Source: Cetobacterium sp. NK01 (GTDB lineage Bacteria > Fusobacteriota > Fusobacteriia > Fusobacteriales > Fusobacteriaceae). From it: a stretch of 64,000 bases of DNA. The notes under the pieces were generated by a model. The model made no database searches. It was not told where the DNA came from and was given only the letters and a program-made list of their open reading frames with translations. Shown here piece by piece: positions 12,387 through 42,958 of the stretch (within the stretch, counting starts at the first letter, position 1; the number at the start of each line of letters is the position of its first letter). Both the position numbers and the translations under genes were made by a program. The stretch is from the NCBI RefSeq assembly GCF_024506395.1, contig NZ_JANIBO010000001.1, positions 62,001-126,000 on the forward strand, written 5' to 3'.

Positions 12387-14174
12387 TTACTGTTCTAAGA
12401 ATTCCTCTACCTCATCAATTGAATGTGATCCTATTAATCTTCCTTTTAACTCTCCGTTTCTGTATAATATTAAAGTTGGAATTGATTTAATCTTATTCTC
12501 TTCTAAGTATGGTTTTTCTTTGTCAGCATCTAAGTGATATTGCTCAAATTTTCCTTCAAATTCAGGCAATAACTCTTCTAGTATAGGTTGTAAGTCTCTA
12601 CAGTTTTTACATCTTTCAGCTCCTACAAATATAAGGATATCTTTTCCTTGTGTAACCTTTTCCTTTAATTTTGTAGATGTTGTTCCAGGGAATAACTTTT
12701 CATTGATATCAAATAGTTTTGGTTTTTTCTCTACTTCATCTCCAGCCGCAACACAAGCACTAATAGCATCAGCTTTAACATATGGTGTAACACCCTCTAC
12801 TTTAATTTTGAAAGCTCCACCACTTGGAGCAGCTCCAGGAACTCTAAAGTTAGAAACATCTAATTTTTCTATAGGTGTTTCAACTGGTTTTTCCAGTTGA
12901 GGAATCCATTCGTAAGGAACTCTGTATGATCTATAGATCATATTCATATTCATAATCTCTTTATCCCATCTTGGATTTATATATTCCCATACAATTTCAA
13001 AATCAGGTGTTACTTCGATTAGTCTTCCGTTAGATCCCTCTGTTATAAGTGTATTCCCATTTGGTAATCTTTGAGCTCCACTTATAAATGGACTATAGAA
13101 TCTTGAAGCATCTAGTGGCATTACAAATCCAGCTTCTTTTGGTGTATATTGCCATACAATTTCTAACGTAACTGGATCTATTTCTAAAACTCTAGAAAAA
13201 TCTCTTCTTGCATTTTTTTCTCCAAATCTAGATACAGGATTTGGTGCTCCATATCCTGCCCATCCACCATTATCAAATACAAGAATATTTCCTTCTCCAG
13301 GTAGTCCTTTTGGAATCATATGAGCATGGTGTTGTCCTATGATACATCCTAAATGTCTCAACTCAGGAGTATTATAATCAGGTCCTAATTTCCAAACTAC
13401 TTTTCCAGTTTCTTTGCTTATAATAGCAATTATATTTGTTTCTCGAGCATCCCAAATTATATTATCAGGATGGAATCTCTCATCTCCTGCATCGTAAAAT
13501 TTATTTGGACCTAAAACTGACATTGAGTTTATATGCATCCAGTCTCCAACTTTTTCAGGATGTGTAGCTCTTAGATTTGGATCTCTAAATAAAACATTTT
13601 TAGCTTCTTCAGAAAAACCATACTCATCAAAGTGTTCGCTACAAATCCATTTCCAAGTTATTTTATTATTCTCATCAACTTCATAAATAATATCATCATG
13701 TAAAAGTTTATCTGAAATTTTAGGATTTCTAACATTTATATGACCTAGAATTAAAGTTTTTCCTCCACCTAATTTAGGTTCCATTCCTGGTACATAATAA
13801 CCTACTGGATTTCCTTCTCTTTGGTAATCATGGTGTTGCCTTGCCATCCATCTAGGAGTTTCTCCTTCGTCCTCTATATATTCTAACTCATCAAATTTCC
13901 AAACAATATTTCCATCCCAATCTAATTCAACTAAATCTGTTTGATCTTGCATTCCAAACTTAGGACTTCTTTCTCCTCTACTTCCTAGTATATGTCCGTT
14001 AGGGAAAATTTTATTTGGAAAACCTTGTAACCCTTCCCATAGACGAATTTCACGTCCGTTCATATCAATTAACATTGCTCCTAAACCAATTAAATTAAAT
14101 ACTGTGTAACCACTCCATGCTTTTTCTGGATTATAAATCGTTGCTCCTGTTGGATAAATCGTTGGATGACCCAT
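12387..14174 (-). CDS. Cytosolic arylsulfotransferase (ASST)-like protein fused to thioredoxin
   Basis: Residues 1 to about 425 form an ASST-type beta-propeller. Repeated blades read G-N-I-V-W-K or L-P-N-G-N-T-L-I, and conserved histidines occur at 114/115, 214 and in G-Q-H-H-A-H-M-I-P (282-285). ASST enzymes pass sulfuryl groups from a phenolic sulfate to another phenol through a covalent histidine. Residues about 495-595 are a thioredoxin domain with C-K-N-C at 522-525 and the cis-proline S-I-P-T at 564-567. There is no signal peptide, unlike periplasmic AssT of E. coli. It follows the thioredoxin-reductase-like gene by 28 bases and precedes an SLC13 permease. The family is confident; acceptor and donor are unknown. 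Confidence 0.8.
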   Translation of the reverse strand: MGHPTIYPTGATIYNPEKAWSGYTVFNLIGLGAMLIDMNGREIRLWEGLQGFPNKIFPNGHILGSRGERSPKFGMQDQTDLVELDWDGNIVWKFDELEYIEDEGETPRWMARQHHDYQREGNPVGYYVPGMEPKLGGGKTLILGHINVRNPKISDKLLHDDIIYEVDENNKITWKWICSEHFDEYGFSEEAKNVLFRDPNLRATHPEKVGDWMHINSMSVLGPNKFYDAGDERFHPDNIIWDARETNIIAIISKETGKVVWKLGPDYNTPELRHLGCIIGQHHAHMIPKGLPGEGNILVFDNGGWAGYGAPNPVSRFGEKNARRDFSRVLEIDPVTLEIVWQYTPKEAGFVMPLDASRFYSPFISGAQRLPNGNTLITEGSNGRLIEVTPDFEIVWEYINPRWDKEIMNMNMIYRSYRVPYEWIPQLEKPVETPIEKLDVSNFRVPGAAPSGGAFKIKVEGVTPYVKADAISACVAAGDEVEKKPKLFDINEKLFPGTTSTKLKEKVTQGKDILIFVGAERCKNCRDLQPILEELLPEFEGKFEQYHLDADKEKPYLEENKIKSIPTLILYRNGELKGRLIGSHSIDEVEEFLEQ

Positions 14175-14202
14175 TTTGTAACCTCCCTATTTTATGTTTA
14201 TT

Positions 14203-15345
14203 TTATTTGTTTATTACTAACTCTGGACTATCTATATTTTCTTTGTTAAAAAATTTAGCTAAGTGTTTATTTTTTCTAATATCAACATATATAAAATCAT
14301 CTATATTATTTTCTCTTAACTCTTTTTCTTTTTCAGAAAGGTATTTCAATCCATCGCTATCTAAAGAGTTCCAAAATCCAATGGCTACATTTTTATCTTT
14401 AATTCTGTTTATATAAATATTCATCTCCTCCAAATATTTTTCAGCAGCTACAGCAGCTACAGCTCCATCTGCAGCAGCAGTTATAACCTGCTTTAAATAT
14501 TTCTCTCTCACATCTCCAGCTACAAAAACTCCAGAGATTGATGAATTTAATAAACTGTCACATTCAATATGACCTCTTTTATCAAGTTTTAATTCTGTTT
14601 CTTCTAAAAATTCAGTGTTAGGAATCATTCCAACAAAGAAAAACACACCTTTGCAAGGAATATCTGTCATATCTCCTGTTTTTAAATTTTTAACTTTTAC
14701 TTTTTCTACAGATTCATCTCCTATGATTTCATCAAGAGTGGAATTCCAGATAAACTCTATTTTAGGATTTTTAAAAGCTTCCTCTGCACTTAATCTGTTG
14801 CAATCTAATATTCCTTCATCATGAAGAACTATGATTTTTACTTTTGAAGCATATTTAGATATAAACATCCCTTCTTCAATAGCTTGATCACCACTTCCTA
14901 CAACAACAACTTCTTGATTTGAAAAAAATTCAGCATCACAAGTAGCGCAGTACGCCACACCTCTACCTTTAAAATCAATTTCTCCAGGAATTCCTAAAAC
15001 TCTTGGTCTAGTTCCAGTTGCAAAAATTACACTTCTAGCTAGATACTCTTTTCTTCTGCTTTTTAAAATTTTTATTTCTCCATCTAACTCAACAGTTCTT
15101 ATGCTATCTCTTACAATTGTAGCTCCTAAATTTTCTGCGTGCTTAGACATAACTTCTCCTAGTTTTTCCCCTGAAGTTTTAGGGATTCCAGGATAATTAA
15201 CTATCTCTGTAGTCTTTGAAGCCATTCCTCCAATAGTTCCTTTTTCTAAAATTAAAGTTTTCATTTTGGCTCTAGCTCCATATACTCCAGCAGCTAGTCC
15301 AGCTGGTCCTGCACCAACAATTATTAAATCGTAAATTTTATCCAT
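14203..15345 (-). CDS. Thioredoxin-reductase-like flavoprotein with C-terminal extension
   Basis: The 380-residue protein has the FAD motif G-A-G-P-A-G at 11-16 and the redox-active C-A-T-C at 133-136. A second Rossmann motif (V-V-V-G-S-G-D-Q-A, NADPH side) and the closing G-V-F-V-A-G-D-V-R FAD motif follow. Standard TrxB is about 310-320 residues. The extra ~70 (N-V-A-I-G-F-W-N-S, then D-F-I-Y-V-D-I-R-K) look like a thioredoxin-fold remnant without cysteines. ATG at 15345 has GGAGG 5 bases upstream; TTG at 15357 is rejected. It is the first gene of the cluster with the ASST-thioredoxin fusion and is probably its dedicated reductase. Confidence 0.8.
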   Translation of the reverse strand: MDKIYDLIIVGAGPAGLAAGVYGARAKMKTLILEKGTIGGMASKTTEIVNYPGIPKTSGEKLGEVMSKHAENLGATIVRDSIRTVELDGEIKILKSRRKEYLARSVIFATGTRPRVLGIPGEIDFKGRGVAYCATCDAEFFSNQEVVVVGSGDQAIEEGMFISKYASKVKIIVLHDEGILDCNRLSAEEAFKNPKIEFIWNSTLDEIIGDESVEKVKVKNLKTGDMTDIPCKGVFFFVGMIPNTEFLEETELKLDKRGHIECDSLLNSSISGVFVAGDVREKYLKQVITAAADGAVAAVAAEKYLEEMNIYINRIKDKNVAIGFWNSLDSDGLKYLSEKEKELRENNIDDFIYVDIRKNKHLAKFFNKENIDSPELVINK

Positions 15346-15834
15346 GCTATCCTCCAACCTTAAAATATACTAGTATTTTTTTAATGAAAATATAAATATA
15401 TAGTAAAAAAATTATTTGTACTATTATTAATAAATATATTTTTATAAACTAAAAAAAAGTTTATACTTCATAACTAAACACCGTTAAAGGTAGATCATAG
15501 CTTATATTTATTTGAGGTTTATTCATTTGAAATGTGCTAAAATGTTTTCTTTTGATACTTTTAATATGATTTTAACTTGAAAAGAATTATTTATATTCAG
15601 GAGTTTAATTTAAAAATATATTTTTGTCAATTTTTAAATAAGATTAATAAATGACTTTTTAAAGCTCAAATAAGAATCGTTTATTTGAAATGGTTTTAAA
15701 AAATCCAATTTGGAGAACTTTCTAAAAATACAAATATATTAATATACTTGTATTTTATGTTTAGTTTTTAATCTTTAATTTTTCAAAAAAAATTCTCACT
15801 TAATTTTAAGTGAGAGTTATTATAATAAAAATAT
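15346..15834. other. 489-bp intergenic region
   Basis: No gene is seen. It should hold the promoter of the minus-strand reductase/sulfotransferase cluster, but no clear -35/-10 pair stands out in the AT-rich sequence. Two similar blocks (tcatttgaaatg at about 15525 and tttatttgaaatgg at about 15680) may be regulator sites. Confidence 0.4.
15785..15815 (-). terminator. Terminator of the ROK kinase gene
   Basis: tctcacttaa (15794-15803) and ttaagtgaga (15806-15815) form a perfect inverted repeat. On the minus strand it is followed by a run of eight T. Confidence 0.8.
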
Positions 15835-34303: not shown

Positions 34304-34331
34304 GGTCTAATCGTATGATTAGACCTTTTTT
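34304..34331 (+). terminator. Terminator after the small exported protein gene
   Basis: ggtctaatc (34304-34312) pairs perfectly with gattagacc (34317-34325), followed by six T. Confidence 0.85.
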
Positions 34332-34412
34332 ATTTTAAAAATAAAAAATTATAAATTAATTATAATAATGATATAATATATCATATTAATATAAAATGGA
34401 GAAATAATTTTA

Positions 34413-36467
34413 ATGGAGATGTTATTAAAGATAAAAAATATTGTTGAAAATTGTATGGGAGATTCAGAAGCAGCCTGTAAAAGTAGTTGTCCAATGAATA
34501 CAGATGCCAAAAATTATGTTAGATTAATTGGAGAGGGAAAAGGAGAAGAAGCAATAAAAGTTATAAGAGAAACACTTTTTCTTCCAGGAACATTAGGAAG
34601 AATATGTGCTCATCCTTGTGAACAAAATTGTAGAAGAGGAAAAGAGGGATTACCAATAGCAATTGCCTCTTTAAAAAGATACGCTGCAGATAATTTTGAT
34701 AAAGAGGAAAACTGGGATGTATCATTAAAAGAGAAAAATGGCAAAAAAGTAGCTGTTATAGGTGCAGGTCCTGCTGGAGCTCAAGGAGCAATAGATCTAG
34801 CAAAAGAGGGGTATGAGGTTACTTTGTATGAAAAATCCTCTCATTTTGGCGGGAGTATGAGAACTAGAATTTCTGAGTCCAAACTTCCAAGGTACGTTAT
34901 AGATAGAGAATACTCTTTGTTAGAAAAATTAAAAATTAATATTAAACTGTCAACTGAAATTGGGAAAGATATATCTTTTGAAAAATTAAAAGAAAACTTT
35001 GATGCAATTTTAGTTGCAATAGGGGAAAAATCAGAAAATATATCTGATTTTGATGAGTTAACAATGCAATTAAATGGAGATAAAATGATCTTTGTGGCAG
35101 GAAATTGTGCTAGCTCACGTATTGTTGTAGAGGCTATGGCTCAAGGGCGAAGAGCAGCTAAATCAATAGATAGGTTTTTAAAGGGAGAAGATCTAAAAAA
35201 AGAGAGAACTTTAGAAGCGGAAGGGGGATATAAGACAAAATTATATCTTCCAACAGAGTATCTACCTAAGGGATGGGATGATCCTGAAAAAAATGAGAGA
35301 GTAATTTCTAAAAATACAGCTTTTGAAAATAGAGGTTTTACTAAAGAGGAGGCTATAAAAGAAGCAAATAGATGTTTACAATGTGAATGTAAATTATGTA
35401 TGAAAGAGTGTACTATGCTAAATGATTATACAGATTGTCCTAAAACTTTGTTCACAGAGTATGATAAAAAAGGATACAACAAAATAGATCCTAAAATAGC
35501 TTATTCTTGTAATATGTGTGATCAATGTACTTTAAAATGTCCTAAAAGTTTAGATTTAAAATCGTGTTTTAGTGAAATAAGAAGTAAATATGTTAAAGAT
35601 AATGGTGGAAAATCTCCAATGAAGGGACATAAAGCTGTTGAAATACATCAGTATTTAGGGTTTTCAAAATTATTTAATACTTTAAAAAAAGCCTCTAACA
35701 GAAAGGAAACAAAATATATATTTTTTCCAGGGTGTTCTTTGCCCTCTTATAGTTCAACTGCTGTAAAAAATATAATGGAACATTTAAAAAATAGACTAGG
35801 AGGAGAGGTTGGATCTTTATTAAAATGTTGTGGAAAACCATCTAAGGCTATAGGACAAGATGATTTATTTGAAAGAAGATTTAAGTCTGTTCAAAGGGAA
35901 TTAGATAAAGTAGAAGCTAAGACCATTATAGTTGCATGCCAATCTTGTTATGGCATATTTAAAAAGAACACAAAATATAATGTGATATCTCTTTGGGAAC
36001 TACTTCCAGAGATTGGATTACCAGATGATCAAATTGGTATAGGAAAAGATTCAGATGTTAAGTTTAATATCCATGATTCGTGTCCAACTAGAAAAGAAAA
36101 AAGAATTCATGATGGAATTAGATGGATTATGGATCAGTTAGGGTATGAGATAGAGGAGTTAGAGAACTCTAAAGAAAAAACAAGGTGTTGTGGTTTTGGG
36201 GGAATGGTAGCACCTGCTGCTCTAGAAGTAGCTAAAAAAGTTATGGATAAAAGAGCATCAGAAACAACAACAGGTTATATGGTAACATATTGTGCAGCTT
36301 GTAGAGAATCTATGGAAAATGGTGGAGCAGATGCTCTACATATAGTTGATTTGATATTTGGTGATAAATATGAAAAAGCAAAAGCTAAAAAAAGAAATAA
36401 AGGACCTATGAAACAATGGTTAACAAGATATAAATCAAAGCTAGAACTTAATAAAGAGGAGAGTTAG
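34413..36467 (+). CDS. FAD / iron-sulfur / CCG-domain oxidoreductase fusion
   Basis: Three parts are joined in 684 residues. At 1-100, a Fer4_20-like Cys region (C14, C22, C26, C65, C69, C73) resembles the front of GltD-type proteins. At 112-258, one Rossmann FAD unit has G-A-G-P-A-G at 117-122 and closes with F-V-A-G-N-C-A. The usual inserted NAD(P) domain with a second G-x-G motif is missing. At 320-380 is a Cys-rich stretch including C366-x2-C-x2-C-x3-C376. At 435-635 are two CCG motifs (C472-C473-G; C592-C593-G, with C627/C630), as in HdrB/HdrD and GlpC. It probably passes electrons between a disulfide-type or noncubane cluster site and a ferredoxin or membrane partner. It heads a tight operon with VTT and ABC genes. 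Substrate unknown. Confidence 0.75.
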   Translation: MEMLLKIKNIVENCMGDSEAACKSSCPMNTDAKNYVRLIGEGKGEEAIKVIRETLFLPGTLGRICAHPCEQNCRRGKEGLPIAIASLKRYAADNFDKEENWDVSLKEKNGKKVAVIGAGPAGAQGAIDLAKEGYEVTLYEKSSHFGGSMRTRISESKLPRYVIDREYSLLEKLKINIKLSTEIGKDISFEKLKENFDAILVAIGEKSENISDFDELTMQLNGDKMIFVAGNCASSRIVVEAMAQGRRAAKSIDRFLKGEDLKKERTLEAEGGYKTKLYLPTEYLPKGWDDPEKNERVISKNTAFENRGFTKEEAIKEANRCLQCECKLCMKECTMLNDYTDCPKTLFTEYDKKGYNKIDPKIAYSCNMCDQCTLKCPKSLDLKSCFSEIRSKYVKDNGGKSPMKGHKAVEIHQYLGFSKLFNTLKKASNRKETKYIFFPGCSLPSYSSTAVKNIMEHLKNRLGGEVGSLLKCCGKPSKAIGQDDLFERRFKSVQRELDKVEAKTIIVACQSCYGIFKKNTKYNVISLWELLPEIGLPDDQIGIGKDSDVKFNIHDSCPTRKEKRIHDGIRWIMDQLGYEIEELENSKEKTRCCGFGGMVAPAALEVAKKVMDKRASETTTGYMVTYCAACRESMENGGADALHIVDLIFGDKYEKAKAKKRNKGPMKQWLTRYKSKLELNKEES

Positions 36468-37133
36468 ATGAAGCAAAAAAGAAAACTATTAAAAATAGCT
36501 ATAGTATGTGTTTTAATAATCCTTGTATTTATAGTTATGAAATCAGGAGCTTTGGAGTATTTAAGAAGTAGAGAAAAATTAGAGGTACTGATTAAGGAAC
36601 TAGGGGTATGGGGACCAGTTATATACATGGTTTTATATGCTATTGTAACAACAACGTGTATATCTGTTTTACCTCTAACTTTAGCAGGGGGAATTATCTT
36701 TGGACCTGTAATGGGAATTTTGTACACAGCTATTGGAGCAGGTTTAGGTTTATCTTTGTCATTTTTAATAGCAAGATATGTTGCTAGAAAATTTGTTGAA
36801 GAGAGATTTGGAAAAACAGAAGTTTTTAAAAAGATAGATGAAGGAGTTAAGAAAGAGGGGTGGTTTATTCTTGCCATTACAAGACTATTGCCAATATTTC
36901 CCTTTGGAATCCAAAACTACGTTTATGGATTAACTTCAATAAGTTTTATTAAATACTCTTTATTATCAACAATATTTATATTGCCAGGAACATCAGTATT
37001 TGTATTATTAGCTGGAGCAGTGGCTTCAGGAGATATGGAAAAAGCTGTTAAAATGTCAATAATAGCATCTCTTATATTTTTGGCTTTAACTATAATAGCA
37101 AAATTAATAGCAAGAAAAAATTCGAAATACTAG
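36468..37133 (+). CDS. VTT-domain (TVP38/TMEM64, DedA-like) membrane protein
   Basis: The 221-residue protein has 5-6 membrane segments. The VTT/SNARE-associated domain is marked by L-P-L-T-L-A-G-G-I-I-F-G, F-L-I-A-R-Y-V-A-R, and R-L-L-P-I-F-P-F-G-I-Q-N-Y-V-Y-G-L-T. Relatives include E. coli YdjX/YdjZ. Some VTT proteins scramble lipids or transport undecaprenyl phosphate; others are linked to redox metabolism. The ATG abuts the stop of the FAD protein, so the two are translationally coupled. It could be the membrane partner of that oxidoreductase. Confidence 0.85.
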   Translation: MKQKRKLLKIAIVCVLIILVFIVMKSGALEYLRSREKLEVLIKELGVWGPVIYMVLYAIVTTTCISVLPLTLAGGIIFGPVMGILYTAIGAGLGLSLSFLIARYVARKFVEERFGKTEVFKKIDEGVKKEGWFILAITRLLPIFPFGIQNYVYGLTSISFIKYSLLSTIFILPGTSVFVLLAGAVASGDMEKAVKMSIIASLIFLALTIIAKLIARKNSKY

Positions 37134-37146
37134 GAGGATTATTAAT

Positions 37147-38310
37147 ATGGGAAAAAAAATAAAACTATTTACACTTTCACTGTTAGTTCTTAGTGCACTA
37201 GCAGGTTGTAAAAAAGAGGAAAATAAAGATGTCAATATCTATATGTGGGGAGGATCAAAAGAGATCAATAAGTTTATGGATGATGTAGTGACTCCTAAAG
37301 TTTTAGAGAAAGATGGAATAAATCTAAAAAGGGTTCCTATTGTAGATATAAAAGATGTTGTTAATAAATTGATAATAGAAAAACAAGCGGGAAAGAAAAA
37401 TGGTGTTATAGATATTTTATGGGTTAATGGTGAAAATTTTAAAGCATTAAAGGATGCTAAAGTTTTAGAAGAAAATATCTTAGCAAAAGTTGAAAATAAA
37501 GATTTATTAAAAGAGAGTACAACTGTTAAAGATTTTGGAGAAACTATAAATGGATTGGAAGTCCCATTTGGGGAAGCTCAATTTAATTTTATATACAATA
37601 CAAAAAATGGAAAAATACCTTTTACTGGATGGGAAACTCTAACAGAGTATGTTAAAAAGAATCCTGGAAAATTTACATATCCAAATGCAAATAATTTTAC
37701 AGGAAGCGCTTTTGTAAGAAATATAGTTATTGATATGTTAGGTTATGATAATATTCAAAAGATGACTCCTGAGGAGTTTAAACAAAATCTTAATTTAGTT
37801 TGGAATTATTTAAATGAGATAGAGCCATATTTATGGAGAAAAGGAGAAACTTATCCTGAATCAGAAGGGAAGTTAGATCTTTTATACTCAACAGGAGAAG
37901 TTAACGTAACAATGGGATACACAATAAATAAAGTTAATTCTAAAATAGAATCAAAAGAGTATCCAGATACATCTCAAAGTTTTTTATTGAATAAAGGAAC
38001 GTTATTTAATAATCACTATTTAGCAATACCTAAAAATGCTCAAAATAAAAGTGGAGCTTTAATAGTTATAAATGAGTTAATTTCACCAGAGATGCAGTTA
38101 TTAAAACAAGAACCAAAAAATTGGGGTGATTTTAATATTTTAGATATGAGAAAATTGACTCCAGAGACTGTTAAAAAATTCTTTGATTTAAATAAAAGTG
38201 GGAAAATTCCATCACCAGAAGAACTTCAAGAAAAAAGAGTTATGGAATTAACTCCAGATAAATTGAAAGTTATTGAAGAGGGATGGATAGAGAACGTTGG
38301 AAAAAATTAA
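37147..38310 (+). CDS. ABC transporter substrate-binding lipoprotein (YnjB-like)
   Basis: The 387-residue precursor ends its signal at L-A-G-C with C21. The mature protein has the V-N-I-Y-M-W-G-G-S-K-E-I-N-K-F start, G-E-A-Q-F-N-F-I-Y-N-T, and N-W-G-D-F-N-I-L-D near the end, as in YnjB-type binding proteins (related to thiamine and iron/sulfate binders). The ligand of YnjB is not established to my knowledge. The stop is overlapped by the first permease start. Confidence 0.75.
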   Translation: MGKKIKLFTLSLLVLSALAGCKKEENKDVNIYMWGGSKEINKFMDDVVTPKVLEKDGINLKRVPIVDIKDVVNKLIIEKQAGKKNGVIDILWVNGENFKALKDAKVLEENILAKVENKDLLKESTTVKDFGETINGLEVPFGEAQFNFIYNTKNGKIPFTGWETLTEYVKKNPGKFTYPNANNFTGSAFVRNIVIDMLGYDNIQKMTPEEFKQNLNLVWNYLNEIEPYLWRKGETYPESEGKLDLLYSTGEVNVTMGYTINKVNSKIESKEYPDTSQSFLLNKGTLFNNHYLAIPKNAQNKSGALIVINELISPEMQLLKQEPKNWGDFNILDMRKLTPETVKKFFDLNKSGKIPSPEELQEKRVMELTPDKLKVIEEGWIENVGKN

Positions 38311-39178
38311 AAAATTTATATATATAATACCGTTCTTTTTATATATAACATTTTTCTTTCTTTATGGTTTATACTACGTTTTTATGACCTCTTTTGGATA
38401 TAATAGAATTTTAACTAAATCATATTTTACTTTAGAATATTATAGAGAAGTTATTTATTCTAAAGAGTTTTATGAGAGCTTAATCTATACAATAAAAATA
38501 AATAGTATAGCTTCTATTTTTGCTTTTATATTGACAATAGGAGTTCTATTTTTGGTTTTTATAAGTAAAAGAAGGGGCTATTTTCATACAAAGTTTTTTC
38601 AAAGAGTAATTGAAGCTCCAGTATTTGTTCCATATTTAGTGAGTGCATACGGAGTACTCTTACTTCTTATGAGAAGAGGTATATTAAATAAGATTTTATT
38701 TAAAATAGGGATCATATCCTCTATAGATGATTTTGTAATATTAACAAATGATAGATATGGAGTTGGCATAATATTAACATATGTTTGGAAGGCATTACCT
38801 TTTATGACTATGATGACTCTTCCTATAGTTTTTAGAATTGATAAGAAGTGGGATTCTTTAGGGAAAATATATAATTTAAGTGATATAACTTTTTTTAAAA
38901 AAATAGTTTTCCCTCTAGTTTTTCCAACTCTAAGTATAAGCTTTTTCATAGTTTTAACATATCTTTTTGCATCTTTTGAAACGCCTTATATTTTAGGTGT
39001 TACTCATCCGAGAGTTTTGTCTGTATTAGTATTTGATACATATACAAAGGGAAGTTTAGATATGAGGGGAAAGATAATGGTTATGAATATTTTAATCTCA
39101 TCTATAAGTTTGCTCTTTGGTGGAGTAATGTGTTTAGTTTTAAAGTTTTTTACAAAATTTGAAGAAAGAGAGTGGTAA
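38297..39178 (+). CDS. ABC transporter permease 1 (N-terminal half of YnjC)
   Basis: The 293-residue protein has six membrane segments and a binding-protein-dependent transport loop (L-G-K-I-Y-N-L-S-D-I-T-F-F-K-K-I-V-F-P). It begins with TTG at 38297, inside the end of the binding-protein gene. The next ATG is too far in. In E. coli a single longer YnjC carries both halves; here they are two genes. It forms the pore with the product of 39180. Confidence 0.75.
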   Translation: MEKIKKFIYIIPFFLYITFFFLYGLYYVFMTSFGYNRILTKSYFTLEYYREVIYSKEFYESLIYTIKINSIASIFAFILTIGVLFLVFISKRRGYFHTKFFQRVIEAPVFVPYLVSAYGVLLLLMRRGILNKILFKIGIISSIDDFVILTNDRYGVGIILTYVWKALPFMTMMTLPIVFRIDKKWDSLGKIYNLSDITFFKKIVFPLVFPTLSISFFIVLTYLFASFETPYILGVTHPRVLSVLVFDTYTKGSLDMRGKIMVMNILISSISLLFGGVMCLVLKFFTKFEEREW

Positions 39179-39179
39179 A

Positions 39180-39926
39180 ATGAAAAGGATATTTTTATGG
39201 ATAACATATTTTTTTATCTCTTTAATATTTTTACTACCATTTATTGGGATATTTTTTAATAGCATGAATTTTAAAATGTGGGGATACGTTTTGAAATCTA
39301 AAGCAACTTACAGCAGTTTATTAACAACATTTTTAGTAGTTTTAATGACTATGTTTATAAACTTTATAATAGGAACACCTGTAGCTGCCTTTATGGCTAG
39401 AGAAAATTTTAAAGGGAAAATTTTTATAGAACTTTTAATAATTTTACCGTTGATAATTCCTACAATGGTAAGTACAATGGGAATACAGTTTGCATTTATA
39501 AAATTAGGATTAATAGAAACAACTCTAGGAGTGGCTATAGTACACAGTGTTACAACAATTCCGTACTATATTCAAAGTATGAGATCAGGATATGTGACCT
39601 TAAATAGAGACTATATAAATTTAGGTAAAATTTTAGGTGCTAATTTCATAGAGAGATTTTTTAAAATTACTTTACCAATGATATATCCATCATTTTTAGT
39701 TGGAATGTCTTTAGTTATAATTGTTTCGTTGGCTCAATATTTAGTGACTTTTATAATAGGAGGAGGACAAATTATGACCCTTCCAATTCTAATGATGCCG
39801 TATTTAGTTGATGGAGGAGTTACTAATGGAACAGTTTATAGTGTAATATATGTTGTATTTACATATTTTTTAGTTTTTTTAATAAATCAGTTAGTAAAAA
39901 AAATTTATAAAAGGAGAGAATATTAG
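39180..39926 (+). CDS. ABC transporter permease 2 (C-terminal half of YnjC)
   Basis: The 248-residue protein has six membrane segments and a coupling loop L-G-K-I-L-G-A-N-F-I-E-R-F-F-K-I-T-L-P. ATG at 39180 begins two bases after the previous stop, behind GAGAGTGG. An in-frame TTG at 39159 is rejected. Its stop directly abuts the ATPase start. Confidence 0.8.
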   Translation: MKRIFLWITYFFISLIFLLPFIGIFFNSMNFKMWGYVLKSKATYSSLLTTFLVVLMTMFINFIIGTPVAAFMARENFKGKIFIELLIILPLIIPTMVSTMGIQFAFIKLGLIETTLGVAIVHSVTTIPYYIQSMRSGYVTLNRDYINLGKILGANFIERFFKITLPMIYPSFLVGMSLVIIVSLAQYLVTFIIGGGQIMTLPILMMPYLVDGGVTNGTVYSVIYVVFTYFLVFLINQLVKKIYKRREY

Positions 39927-40916
39927 ATGATAGAGATAAAAGAAGTCTCTAAATCCTTTTCTGCATTTTCTTTAAAAAATATAAATATCTCTATAAAAGA
40001 GGGAGAATTTATAGGAGTACTAGGACAATCAGGATCTGGAAAAACCACTCTTTTAAATATAGTATCAGGACTAGACAAAGAGTTTCAAGGAGAGATATTA
40101 ATAGATGGAAAAAGTCCGAGTAGGATGATAAAGGATGGGAAGATTGCAATGGTTTTTCAAAAGGATCTTCTTCTTCCTCATTTAAATGTTTGGGAAAATA
40201 TAGCTTTTGGATTGAAGATAAAAAAAATATCTAAAGATGAAATTGAAAAAAGAGTTAGAGAAGTTTTACTAGAAATGGATTTAGTGGGAAAAGAGAAAAG
40301 GTTTCCAAATGAACTAAGTGGAGGAGAGAAGCAAAGAGTTTCAATAGCAAGAGCAATAGTTACAAGGCCAAAACTTTTACTAATGGATGAACCTTTTTCT
40401 GCACTAGATTTCAATTTGAGAGATAAAATGCAAAAGATGGTAAAAAAACTTCACGAAAGATTAAAAGTTACAATTATATTTGTAACTCATGATAGAGAGG
40501 AAGCTTTTTATCTCTCTACTAGAATAGGAGTTATGTTTAAGGGAGAGCTTTTAGATTATGGAACACCTAAAGATCTATATAATGAGCCAAAAAATGTTTA
40601 TACAGCTAAATTACTAGGTGTGGAAAATATATTTTTAAAAGAGAAGTTTGAAAGTATATTTAAATGTAAAATAAAACATTGTAAGTTTGTAGCACTTAGA
40701 GGAAAAAGTATTAAAATAGTTAAGGATTCTAATTTAAAAGGAAAAGTAGAAGAGATAACTTATAAAATGGGTGGTCACTGGGTAGTTGTATCTTTAGGAG
40801 ACGAAAAAATAACCTTAGTAGAGGAAAATGAAGTTTTATATGAAAAAGGAGATGAGATCTCTTTAAGTTATAATGACAATGAGAAAATTTTAATAGGAGA
40901 GCAAAGTAGATGCTAG
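39927..40916 (+). CDS. ABC transporter ATPase (YnjD-like, with C-terminal regulatory region)
   Basis: The 329-residue protein has Walker A G-Q-S-G-S-G-K-T-T, Q-loop V-F-Q-K-D, signature L-S-G-G-E-K-Q-R-V-S, Walker B L-L-L-M-D-E-P-F, and switch His in V-T-H-D-R-E-E-A. Residues about 240-325 are a TOBE-like extension. It powers uptake through the two permeases. The final codons overlap the start of the phosphatidyltransferase gene. Confidence 0.9.
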   Translation: MIEIKEVSKSFSAFSLKNINISIKEGEFIGVLGQSGSGKTTLLNIVSGLDKEFQGEILIDGKSPSRMIKDGKIAMVFQKDLLLPHLNVWENIAFGLKIKKISKDEIEKRVREVLLEMDLVGKEKRFPNELSGGEKQRVSIARAIVTRPKLLLMDEPFSALDFNLRDKMQKMVKKLHERLKVTIIFVTHDREEAFYLSTRIGVMFKGELLDYGTPKDLYNEPKNVYTAKLLGVENIFLKEKFESIFKCKIKHCKFVALRGKSIKIVKDSNLKGKVEEITYKMGGHWVVVSLGDEKITLVEENEVLYEKGDEISLSYNDNEKILIGEQSRC

Positions 40917-41503
40917 ATACACATTGTAGAAAATATATTCAACCTTTAATTGGTTTAGGAGCAGATATAGCTATAAAACTTGGATTAGATGCTAATAGAG
41001 TTACAATAATAGCTATGCTAGTTGGAGTTTTAAGTGGAATTTTAACAGCATTAGACTTAAATATAGCTGGAATTTTAATGCTATGGATTTCAGGGTATTT
41101 AGATGCAGTGGATGGGACTATAGCTAGAAAGACAAAATCCTCATCACCTTTTGGAACAGTAATGGATATAACATTTGATAGAATAGTTGAAGGATCTGTT
41201 ATAATAGGTGTTGCTTATAAATATTCCCAGTTTAGTTTTATATCTCTTGTATTAGCTGTTAGTATAATAATATCAATGACAATATTTCTAACAACAGGAC
41301 CATTAGCTGAAAATAAAGGAGAGAAAACATTTTATTATCAAGCGGGATTAGCCGAAAGAACTGAGGGATTTGTAATGCTTAGTTTAATGATACTTTTAAG
41401 AGAGAGAGCAGAAGTTGTTATAAATATATTTTCTGGAGTAGTTTTATTTACCGCTGGGCAAAGATTTATAGAAGCTAAAAAAATATTATCAAAAGACCTA
41501 TAA
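40910..41503 (+). CDS. CDP-alcohol phosphatidyltransferase family protein (YnjF-like)
   Basis: The 197-residue membrane protein has the complete family motif D-x2-D-G-x2-A-R-x8-G-x3-D-x3-D, from D-A-V-D-G-T-I-A-R to D-I-T-F-D. The metal-binding residues are therefore intact. The family joins a CDP-activated lipid or alcohol to an acceptor (glycerol phosphate, inositol phosphate and others). It overlaps the ATPase gene by 7 bases. E. coli ynjF also lies in the ynj neighbourhood, so the link with the transporter is not accidental. Why a transporter locus needs a phospholipid synthase-like enzyme is open. Confidence 0.85.
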   Translation: MLDTHCRKYIQPLIGLGADIAIKLGLDANRVTIIAMLVGVLSGILTALDLNIAGILMLWISGYLDAVDGTIARKTKSSSPFGTVMDITFDRIVEGSVIIGVAYKYSQFSFISLVLAVSIIISMTIFLTTGPLAENKGEKTFYYQAGLAERTEGFVMLSLMILLRERAEVVINIFSGVVLFTAGQRFIEAKKILSKDL

Positions 41504-41544
41504 TCTATACATAGAAAAAAACTTTTCAGAATGCCCTCTATATG

Positions 41545-41558
41545 CTATTATATAATAG
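41545..41558. promoter_or_regulatory. Palindromic -10 region before the HTH regulator gene
   Basis: ctattatataatag is a perfect 14-base palindrome containing TATAAT (41551-41556), 17 bases before the ATG at 41573. A convincing -35 is not visible. Confidence 0.4.
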
Positions 41559-41572
41559 TAGGGGGTGGTATA

Positions 41573-42958
41573 ATGCATACAACAGCTGCAAATATTTTAA
41601 AAATTTTATCTCAGAGTGAAATGTCTGTAGATGATATGCAGTTGTATTTAGAAGTAGAGAAAAGCTCAATAATGAAAGCAATCTTACAACTTAATGAGTT
41701 TTTAGAATCGATCAACTTACCAATAATAAAGAGGAACGACAGCTTATGTTCTTTAAATCTTTCAAATCAACAGATGAAAACACTATTTAACAATTTTAAC
41801 ACTTTAACATCAGTAGAAAAAGTAGATTATCTATTTATTAAATTTATAGCAACGGGATTTTTAAATTTAGAAAAAGAAAAAGAGAATCTAGATATATCTA
41901 GAAGTACAATTTTAAGAGCTTTTAAAACAGTAAAAGAGACATTTGCAAAAAATGGATCAACTTATGAGTATATCCATGGAAAGGGATTAGTTTTAACTCA
42001 TCTCAGTAGTTTAGATAAAACAGCTTTTTGCAAAAAATTAATGATATTCTTTATAGAGGAGGATATTTTAGTTCCAAGCAGAAGAAATTTATTAAATAGT
42101 ATAAAAAAGTTTGATACAAAAGAAAGAGTAGAAAAATTGTATCCTATTTTAAGTAATTCAGAGATGTCTGTTAATTATTTTGTATTGGCATTTATACATG
42201 TTTTAGAAGTTTGTGTAGATATATTTGGAGGGTTTGATTTTAAAGTAGAATCTATTAAAGAGATGGATAAGTTTATAAAAATAAAAAATTCTGTTGAAAA
42301 GTGTGGAAAAGAATTAAGCGAAGAGTATAAAAAACAATTGGTTTACTTTTTATATTCATTCTCTTTAGATCAAGGGCGTTTAGATGGAACTTTAATAAAT
42401 ATAAGTTCTAAATTTATAAGTGATTTAAAAGACTATTTCAAGTTGAAAATTAATAATAAAGATCTTTATAAACTACTTTTTAATAAGGTTTATCTTTCGT
42501 TTTTTAAATTAGAAAATAATATTTTAAAGATATCTAATATAAAAAGAGATAGATCCTATATGAAAATTTTAGAAAAATTAGATATATTTTTAGCAGAAAA
42601 TTCATATAAAATATACTTAGCAGATAAATATGTGATAGCATTTGTTTTAAAAACAATTATTATCGAGGAGAATATTTCAGAAATAAAAAATGTTTTATTA
42701 CTTCTTCATGATGCTGCAATAAATCGGAAAAGTGCTTTTAATATATCCTTAAAAAGGTATATTCCAGCGGTAAATTTTGATGTAGAACCGATATTGTTCT
42801 ATCAAAAAAATGTGGCTAAATTAAAAAAAGATTATGACATAATAATAGCAGACAGCAAAATATCATATGAGTCAATTTTAATAGATTCATATAACAATAT
42901 TAAAATCTATGAAATTTTAGAAAATCATGCATTAAATGTAGGATTGAATAAGAAATAA
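41573..42958 (+). CDS. HTH regulator with Mga/BglG-like architecture
   Basis: The 461-residue protein has two N-terminal winged helices (I-L-K-I-L-S-Q-S-E-M-S-V-D-D, then L-D-I-S-R-S-T-I-L-R-A-F-K-T-V). A long helical middle region and a C-terminal alpha/beta part (D-I-I-I-A-D-S-K) follow. This order recalls Mga and BglG-type regulators, but phosphorylated PRD histidines are not clearly seen. ATG at 41573 follows GGGGGTGG; an in-frame ATG at 41531 overlaps the -10 region and is rejected. It lies 70 bases after the Ynj-like operon and may control it. A hairpin terminator follows. Confidence 0.6.
   Translation: MHTTAANILKILSQSEMSVDDMQLYLEVEKSSIMKAILQLNEFLESINLPIIKRNDSLCSLNLSNQQMKTLFNNFNTLTSVEKVDYLFIKFIATGFLNLEKEKENLDISRSTILRAFKTVKETFAKNGSTYEYIHGKGLVLTHLSSLDKTAFCKKLMIFFIEEDILVPSRRNLLNSIKKFDTKERVEKLYPILSNSEMSVNYFVLAFIHVLEVCVDIFGGFDFKVESIKEMDKFIKIKNSVEKCGKELSEEYKKQLVYFLYSFSLDQGRLDGTLINISSKFISDLKDYFKLKINNKDLYKLLFNKVYLSFFKLENNILKISNIKRDRSYMKILEKLDIFLAENSYKIYLADKYVIAFVLKTIIIEENISEIKNVLLLLHDAAINRKSAFNISLKRYIPAVNFDVEPILFYQKNVAKLKKDYDIIIADSKISYESILIDSYNNIKIYEILENHALNVGLNKK

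Follow-up and report, generated by a model that had tools for sequence, protein, structure and literature searches.

Gene organization of the ynj-type operon

The stretch of DNA analysed here (hereafter designated the window) comprises 64,000 nt of the anaerobe Cetobacterium sp. NK01 (NZ_JANIBO010000001.1, 62,001–126,000), and coordinates given without a locus handle refer to it. At 34413–41503, seven open reading frames follow one another on the + strand with intergenic gaps of 0–13 bases or short overlaps, exactly as an earlier reading of this DNA (hereafter the original prediction) had described, namely seven genes with overlaps or gaps of less than 15 bases. The gene names, which are backed for all seven genes by Pfam and NCBIfam domain scans (Table 1), denote a flavoprotein, a VTT-family membrane protein, an ATP-binding cassette (ABC) importer of the YnjBCD type, and a YnjF-type cytidine diphosphate (CDP)-alcohol phosphatidyltransferase. 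The importer is complete, with two permease units and the ATPase encoded in the same operon as the binding protein. As judged from its gene content, the operon represents in Fusobacteriota a widespread system (hereafter the Ynj system), whose importer and YnjF usually occur with a VTT protein and a redox enzyme of one or another interchangeable type.

Table 1 Genes and sequence features of the ynj-type operon and its flanks
Feature	Position	Strand	Basis or remark
GltD/HdrD-type flavoprotein, 684 aa	34413..36467	+	Pfam Fer4_20, CCG, Fer4_17, Rossmann
VTT/DedA-family membrane protein, YdjX-like (COG0398-type by similarity)	36468..37133	+	PF09335, 4.5e-26
YnjB-family substrate-binding lipoprotein of the ABC importer	37147..38310	+	SBP_bac_8; NF008633, 390 bits
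Importer permease 1 (YnjC half equivalent)	38297..39178	+	Weak BPD_transp_1; position and conservation in relatives
Importer permease 2 (YnjC half equivalent)	about 39180..39926	+	BPD_transp_1, 1.1e-16; alternative TTG start at 39159
Importer ATPase (YnjD equivalent, longer C terminus)	39927..40916	+	ABC_tran, 3.1e-36
YnjF-type CDP-alcohol phosphatidyltransferase	40910..41503	+	CDP-OH_P_transf, PF01066, 1.1e-12
Helix-turn-helix (HTH) protein, adjacent, judged outside the system	41573..42958	+	Weak HTH_11 match below the Pfam cut-off
Promoter-like site	34368..34397	+	5' of the operon; contains inverted repeat TGATATAATATATCA; consensus match only
Terminator-like hairpin	34304-34325		Ends the previous gene; 5' of the promoter-like site

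Coupling of the importer with the YnjF-type phosphatidyltransferase

We found that the importer and the YnjF-type enzyme are almost always present or absent together. Thus, among 98 Fusobacteriota genomes, the importer scored above the family cut-off in 29, of which 27 also encode YnjF and two do not, while no genome has YnjF only and 69 have neither. The same nesting was observed in 199 genomes of the Bacillota order that includes Salimicrobium (locus L101), where 67 genomes have both, one has the importer only, none has YnjF only, and 131 have neither. Moreover, the importer lies far from YnjF in at least seven of the Bacillota genomes, six with the genes 97–155 kb apart on one contig and one (G224) with the genes on different contigs; because the pair is kept in these genomes, adjacency alone cannot explain the coupling. 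As to the two importer-only Fusobacteriota, the locus of G011 lies on a short contig, and in G044 the neighbours of the importer are instead a fused TIGR04283 transferase and a methylthioribose kinase. These counts show that the YnjBCD-type importer and the YnjF-type enzyme, as recognized by their sequences, form a near-obligate pair in the two phyla tested by whole-genome searches, and the gene set is far beyond chance. A lack of co-conservation beyond close relatives, the outcome that the original prediction had named against itself, is contradicted for the importer and the phosphatidyltransferase.

The neighbourhoods were examined more widely by comparing 25 Fusobacteriota loci with the window and E. 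coli and by scanning public genomes with the binding-protein alignment, which gave 80 named loci (Bacillota, Spirochaetota, Desulfobacterota, Chloroflexota, and others). Module counts, made by neighbour clustering and profile searches, refer to the 54 named loci that have full flanks. The system recurs in Bacillota, Spirochaetota, Fusobacteriota, and Gammaproteobacteria, with a YnjF-type gene within 7 kb in 34 of the full-flank loci and a VTT gene within 7 kb in 38. Recurrence with different redox enzymes had been taken as the sign of one system, an expectation borne out by these cross-phylum loci together with the phyletic coupling.

Acceptor of the YnjF-type enzyme

The window protein carries the CDP-alcohol phosphatidyltransferase motif D-x2-D-G-x2-A-R-x8-G-x3-D-x3-D (D65, D68, G69, A72, R73, G82, D86, and D90), and the catalytic D65, D68, D86, and D90 are conserved in 60/60 YnjF-type sequences. 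It belongs to the YnjF type by virtue of the subfamily motif K[ST]F[YH]YxxG[LV]xExTE, which is common to E. coli YnjF. In structure predictions (predicted local distance difference test score, pLDDT, 88.6), the best PDB matches were synthases of the CDP-diacylglycerol:inositol-phosphate phosphatidyltransferase type (PIP synthases, PgsA1), with a template modelling (TM) score of 0.75 to 6h59. Two arginines of PIP synthase, R155 and R195 in the M. tuberculosis enzyme, are believed to hold the phosphate group of inositol phosphate, and a change in either one severely cuts activity (PMC4634129). The R195 equivalent is kept in 60/60 YnjF-type proteins, as are the flanking glutamates, and the R155 equivalent is Gly or Thr in all 60. 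Lacking one of the two phosphate-binding arginines, YnjF is not a PIP synthase as far as its sequence tells. The loss of the R155 equivalent makes inositol phosphate an improbable acceptor. The compound used in its place may bear no phosphate, being an unphosphorylated alcohol of the kind that an importer could deliver directly. No paper giving a function for ynjF was found in the literature searched.

Binding protein and ligand class

The binding protein is a member of the YnjB family (NF008633; 390.2 bits against a curated cut-off of 203), and its structure was predicted with a pLDDT of 94. Its conserved residues include Trp34, Trp92, Glu96, Trp230, and Trp326. No solved structures of close relatives were found by sequence. 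The best matches of the model included PotD and thiamine- and iron-binding proteins in Foldseek, and were glycoside binders (Z 27–29) in VIA-align; since polyamine, iron, thiamine, and sugar binders all occur among the matches and the two rankings disagree, the fold does not name the ligand. These matches, together with the listing of YnjB, without test, as a polyamine transporter homologue (PMC9397018), would also suit an ordinary nutrient importer for a polyamine, thiamine, or a sugar that merely stands among unrelated neighbours. We regard this explanation as unlikely, because the coupling to YnjF persists where the genes lie far apart, and also because no riboswitch of any known family, including the thiamine pyrophosphate (TPP) class, reached the gathering score in 26 sampled sources, a result that is silent on other modes of regulation. 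The absence of a TPP riboswitch from these sources likewise speaks against thiamine regulation; a thiamine-like compound had been among the ligands suggested at the outset.

A YnjB-type importer of Chloroflexota (L107, 8200-9723 and 14101-15198) has sulfoquinovose-isomerase-like, DhaK/DhaL-like, ADP-ribosylglycohydrolase-like, and nucleoside-hydrolase-like neighbours, which suggests a sugar-type ligand in that branch.

Interchangeable redox enzymes

The flavoprotein of the window contains a flavin adenine dinucleotide (FAD) domain, a ferredoxin dicluster (Fer4_17), and two CCG stretches. Against the oxidoreductase/dicluster family NF045663 it scored 525.7 bits, just under the cut-off of 530 and hence outside the family, covering profile positions 4–658 of 759. 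Alignment with relatives of 861–867 aa revealed that about 170 residues, corresponding to the NAD(P)H-binding subdomain found in most full-length relatives, are absent. The same subdomain is lacking in the flavoprotein of the relative G005 and at L054:7548-9581, and there, as in the window, the FAD motif VAGD is changed to VAGN. With the subdomain missing, the flavoprotein would have to take electrons from another donor. The same genome (G000, contig C1) encodes a full-length paralogue of 850 aa outside the window, about 108 kb away (L139:8330-10882), next to a MerR-type regulator and a membrane protein and with no importer nearby.

Among the full-flank loci, 25 carry a MerA/lipoamide-dehydrogenase-like enzyme and seven an HdrD-type flavoprotein, never both. 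Some Bacilli fill the redox slot with YdjY and a PrdB-like selenoprotein, and elsewhere YdjY occurs with AhpD-like proteins. The redox types are interspersed on the importer tree, indicating that the slot has been swapped repeatedly. The PrdB-like gene (D-proline reductase type) adjoins the importer operon in five Bacilli loci (L091:8847-9596, L071:14625-15356, L081, L098, and L099) and probably encodes a selenoprotein, since an in-frame UGA (LNPGUYICHQS/LSPGUYICHQS) is conserved in both translated copies.

This in-frame UGA is one of several features that recall selenium, a ligand proposed in the original prediction. Thus, TIGR03169, a domain known from fusions to SelD, occurs in 56/68 of the Bacillota genomes with the importer against 8/131 of those without, a strong association; NF045663 is named for its nearness to selenoproteins (a neighbourhood link that may have been described before), and selD is present in 27 of the 29 importer-positive Fusobacteriota. 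In the Bacillota, however, selD itself is not associated with the importer (40/68 with and 73/131 without; p = 0.76): 28 importer-positive genomes there have no selD, and neither does the Fusobacteriota genome G040 (99% complete), in which the system is present. Selenium supply for selenoproteins is thus largely refuted by the phyletic test and is highly improbable as the role of the system.

VTT protein and its rhodanese partner

The VTT protein scored 92.2 bits against PF09335 (gathering cut-off 33.9) and is 33% identical to E. coli YdjX. A role as phospholipid scramblases has been proposed for VTT proteins of the COG0398 subfamily, which are most often fused to disulfide-reductase domains (PMC10127716). 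The common gene order in Fusobacteriota is flavoprotein, rhodanese, VTT, binding protein, permease, permease, ATPase, and phosphatidyltransferase; the gene for a periplasmic, YnjE-like rhodanese, which most Fusobacteriota relatives have between the flavoprotein and VTT genes, is gone from the window. It is also missing at the locus of G005, and the only rhodanese match in the genome of the window is a distant one on another contig. At L034 (10766-12322), L036, L049, L050, and L053, a secreted tandem rhodanese precedes the VTT domain in a single fused protein. Resemblances of the fusion to 3-mercaptopyruvate sulfurtransferase (118 bits) and to the ExtH rhodanese of a selenite/tellurite operon (90 bits) are both below cut-off.

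Through the rhodanese partner, a link to sulfur is possible. One explanation starting from it takes rhodanese, disulfide reductase, and VTT as the core of sulfane-sulfur or metalloid handling, with the importer feeding a sulfur compound and YnjF supporting the VTT protein or protecting the membrane. The secreted and VTT-fused rhodaneses, their resemblances just mentioned, and the TusA-like and rhodanese-like genes at L088 agree with it, and the substrate of YnjE itself is unclear (PMC10215317). Nevertheless, the rhodanese is absent from the window operon and occurs in only 5 of 40 Bacillota loci, the constant partner being YnjF, and membrane protection hardly explains a nearly one-to-one coupling of importer and YnjF. 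We therefore judge sulfane-sulfur or metalloid handling rather unlikely as the core function.

Loci with kinase and glycosyltransferases

In Halanaerobacter, Vagococcus, a Brevinema-labelled genome, and several Desulfobacterota loci, YnjF is replaced by an APH/choline-kinase-like kinase, often together with TIGR04282-/TIGR04283-type transferases and a nucleoside hydrolase. The APH kinase and YnjF occur together in 0/54 full-flank loci, and no YnjF-type gene was found in three kinase-set genomes searched as a whole. We infer that the kinase set and YnjF are two routes for attaching the same imported compound. A YnjB-type importer without YnjF has at its side, at L031:12507-13706, a fused TIGR04283 glycosyltransferase and a methylthioribose kinase (TIGR01767, 445 bits).

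The transferases raise the question of organoarsenic compounds, that is, of arsenosugar-type ribosides being imported, reduced, and joined to lipid. TIGR04283 and TIGR04282 (arsenosugar glycosyltransferases by their NCBI name) or close relatives adjoin the importer at L031, L033, L035, L061, L088, and L136, all three TIGR04283 genes among the 98 Fusobacteriota genomes sit at the importer locus, and genes for nucleoside hydrolase and methylthioribose kinase are also present at some loci. The arsenosugar name of these families presumably derives from their association elsewhere with the radical SAM enzyme ArsS, and not from tested activity. ArsS (TIGR04167) was above cut-off in 0/98 Fusobacteriota genomes, so that arsenosugar synthesis is not the role here, and most loci are without the transferases; arsenosugar handling is accordingly quite improbable. 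An ArsR-type gene beside Planococcus loci was set aside as too weak a hint of arsenic.

Flanking features

The HTH gene, which the original prediction had noted as a regulator following the operon, does adjoin it; no homologue, however, was found near any of about 100 related loci, and its likelier start is the ATG at 41573, which is about 70 bases past the operon and has a ribosome-binding site of its own. It is hence judged a neighbour and not a part of the system, and was rejected as the operon regulator; it also has a separate promoter-like site. The promoter-like match in front of the operon is no less frequent in shuffled sequence; the inverted repeat within it was read from the sequence, and neither has a counterpart at the same place in G005. 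In Tepidibacter formicigenes, the importer gene is preceded at a distance of about 4 kb by a T-box leader (L070:5606-5817, 137.6 bits). Elsewhere in the window (12387-15357), an arylsulfotransferase-like protein with a thioredoxin-like tail is encoded beside a thioredoxin-reductase-like gene and a permease.

Proposed function of the Ynj system

What is new here is the near-perfect coupling of the importer with a YnjF-type phosphatidyltransferase. An importer tied almost one-to-one to a lipid enzyme suggests that a small alcohol is imported and built into a membrane lipid. Presumably, the importer would take up a small organic alcohol, which the redox enzyme would reduce or whose sulfur- or disulfide-type group it would keep reduced. 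With CDP-diacylglycerol as donor, YnjF would then phosphatidylate the free hydroxyl, giving a minor phospholipid with the imported head group, and the VTT protein would carry this lipid or a precursor across the membrane. Where present, the periplasmic rhodanese may act on the substrate outside the cytoplasm, and in lineages without YnjF the APH/choline-kinase-like kinase and the two transferases may attach the same compound by the other route. In the window organism, the rhodanese step would be gone, and the flavoprotein, unable to bind NAD(P)H through the subdomain that it lacks, would receive electrons from some other donor. For the central part of this scheme, a free alcohol brought in by the importer and made a phospholipid head group by YnjF, with reductase and VTT protein as helpers, we see an even chance.

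Several points weigh against it. The ligand, the lipid product, and the activity are predictions from sequence. The sampled genomes are related, and formal p-values overstate their independence, the nesting itself being plain. Relatives of the substrate-binding protein in Desulfobacterota, Chloroflexota, and Alphaproteobacteria have no YnjF nearby, meaning that the importer can serve other uses. The either/or rules are not strict, since L046-L048 carry both redox enzymes and the Fusobacteriota locus L033 has both attachment sets. Finally, a system that handles a sugar or a nucleoside and involves no lipid step would also account for the neighbouring genes for kinase, glycosyltransferase, and nucleoside hydrolase.

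Collectively, the idea of one recurring system stands, while the selenium and thiamine guesses for its ligand are not supported. In its fullest form, the phospholipid proposal is that the Ynj system, including that of E. coli, synthesizes a phospholipid that has not been described before. Its head group would be an alcohol taken up from outside, redox-active and probably containing sulfur, with reduction by the interchangeable slot and flipping by the VTT protein; we offer this version only tentatively. If true, it would give E. coli ydjXYZ-ynjABCDEF a function and provide a missing bacterial lipid as well as a role for bacterial VTT proteins, the relatives of human TMEM41B and VMP1.

Comparison with known systems

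Arsenosugar-type clusters, in which TIGR04282/TIGR04283 occur with ArsS, have these glycosyltransferases in common with some Ynj loci; unlike them, Fusobacteriota are without ArsS, and the window locus has neither transferase. PIP synthase is the best structural and profile relative of YnjF and has all the catalytic aspartates in common with it, whereas YnjF has an additional motif, K[ST]F[YH]Y, is devoid of the Arg155 equivalent (60/60), and scored 59.5 bits against the NF045883 cut-off of 170. A parallel in the way of working is offered by the choline importer and phosphatidylcholine synthase Pcs, where an imported free alcohol is joined directly to CDP-diacylglycerol, as is proposed for the Ynj system. 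YnjF matched no Pcs family in the scans made, and redox and VTT partners are not part of the Pcs route.

The E. coli set ydjXYZ-ynjABCDE with ynjF, which the original prediction had pointed out as a related assortment, indeed has an orthologous core: YnjB (32% identity to the window protein), a YnjC/YnjD-type importer, a YdjX-type VTT protein, and a YnjF with the same catalytic and subfamily motifs. The two differ in that E. coli has YdjY and the AhpD-like YnjA where the window has the GltD/HdrD flavoprotein, one fused permease YnjC in place of two, ynjF on the opposite strand, and the rhodanese YnjE, which the window operon is without. E. coli ydjXYZ-ynjABCD is activated by FNR (PMC3688515), which fits an anaerobic role. 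For E. coli ydjXYZ-ynjABCDEF, a conserved, anaerobically induced orphan, the coupling of importer and YnjF narrows the problem to one question, that is, whether there is a phospholipid dependent on ynjB and ynjF.

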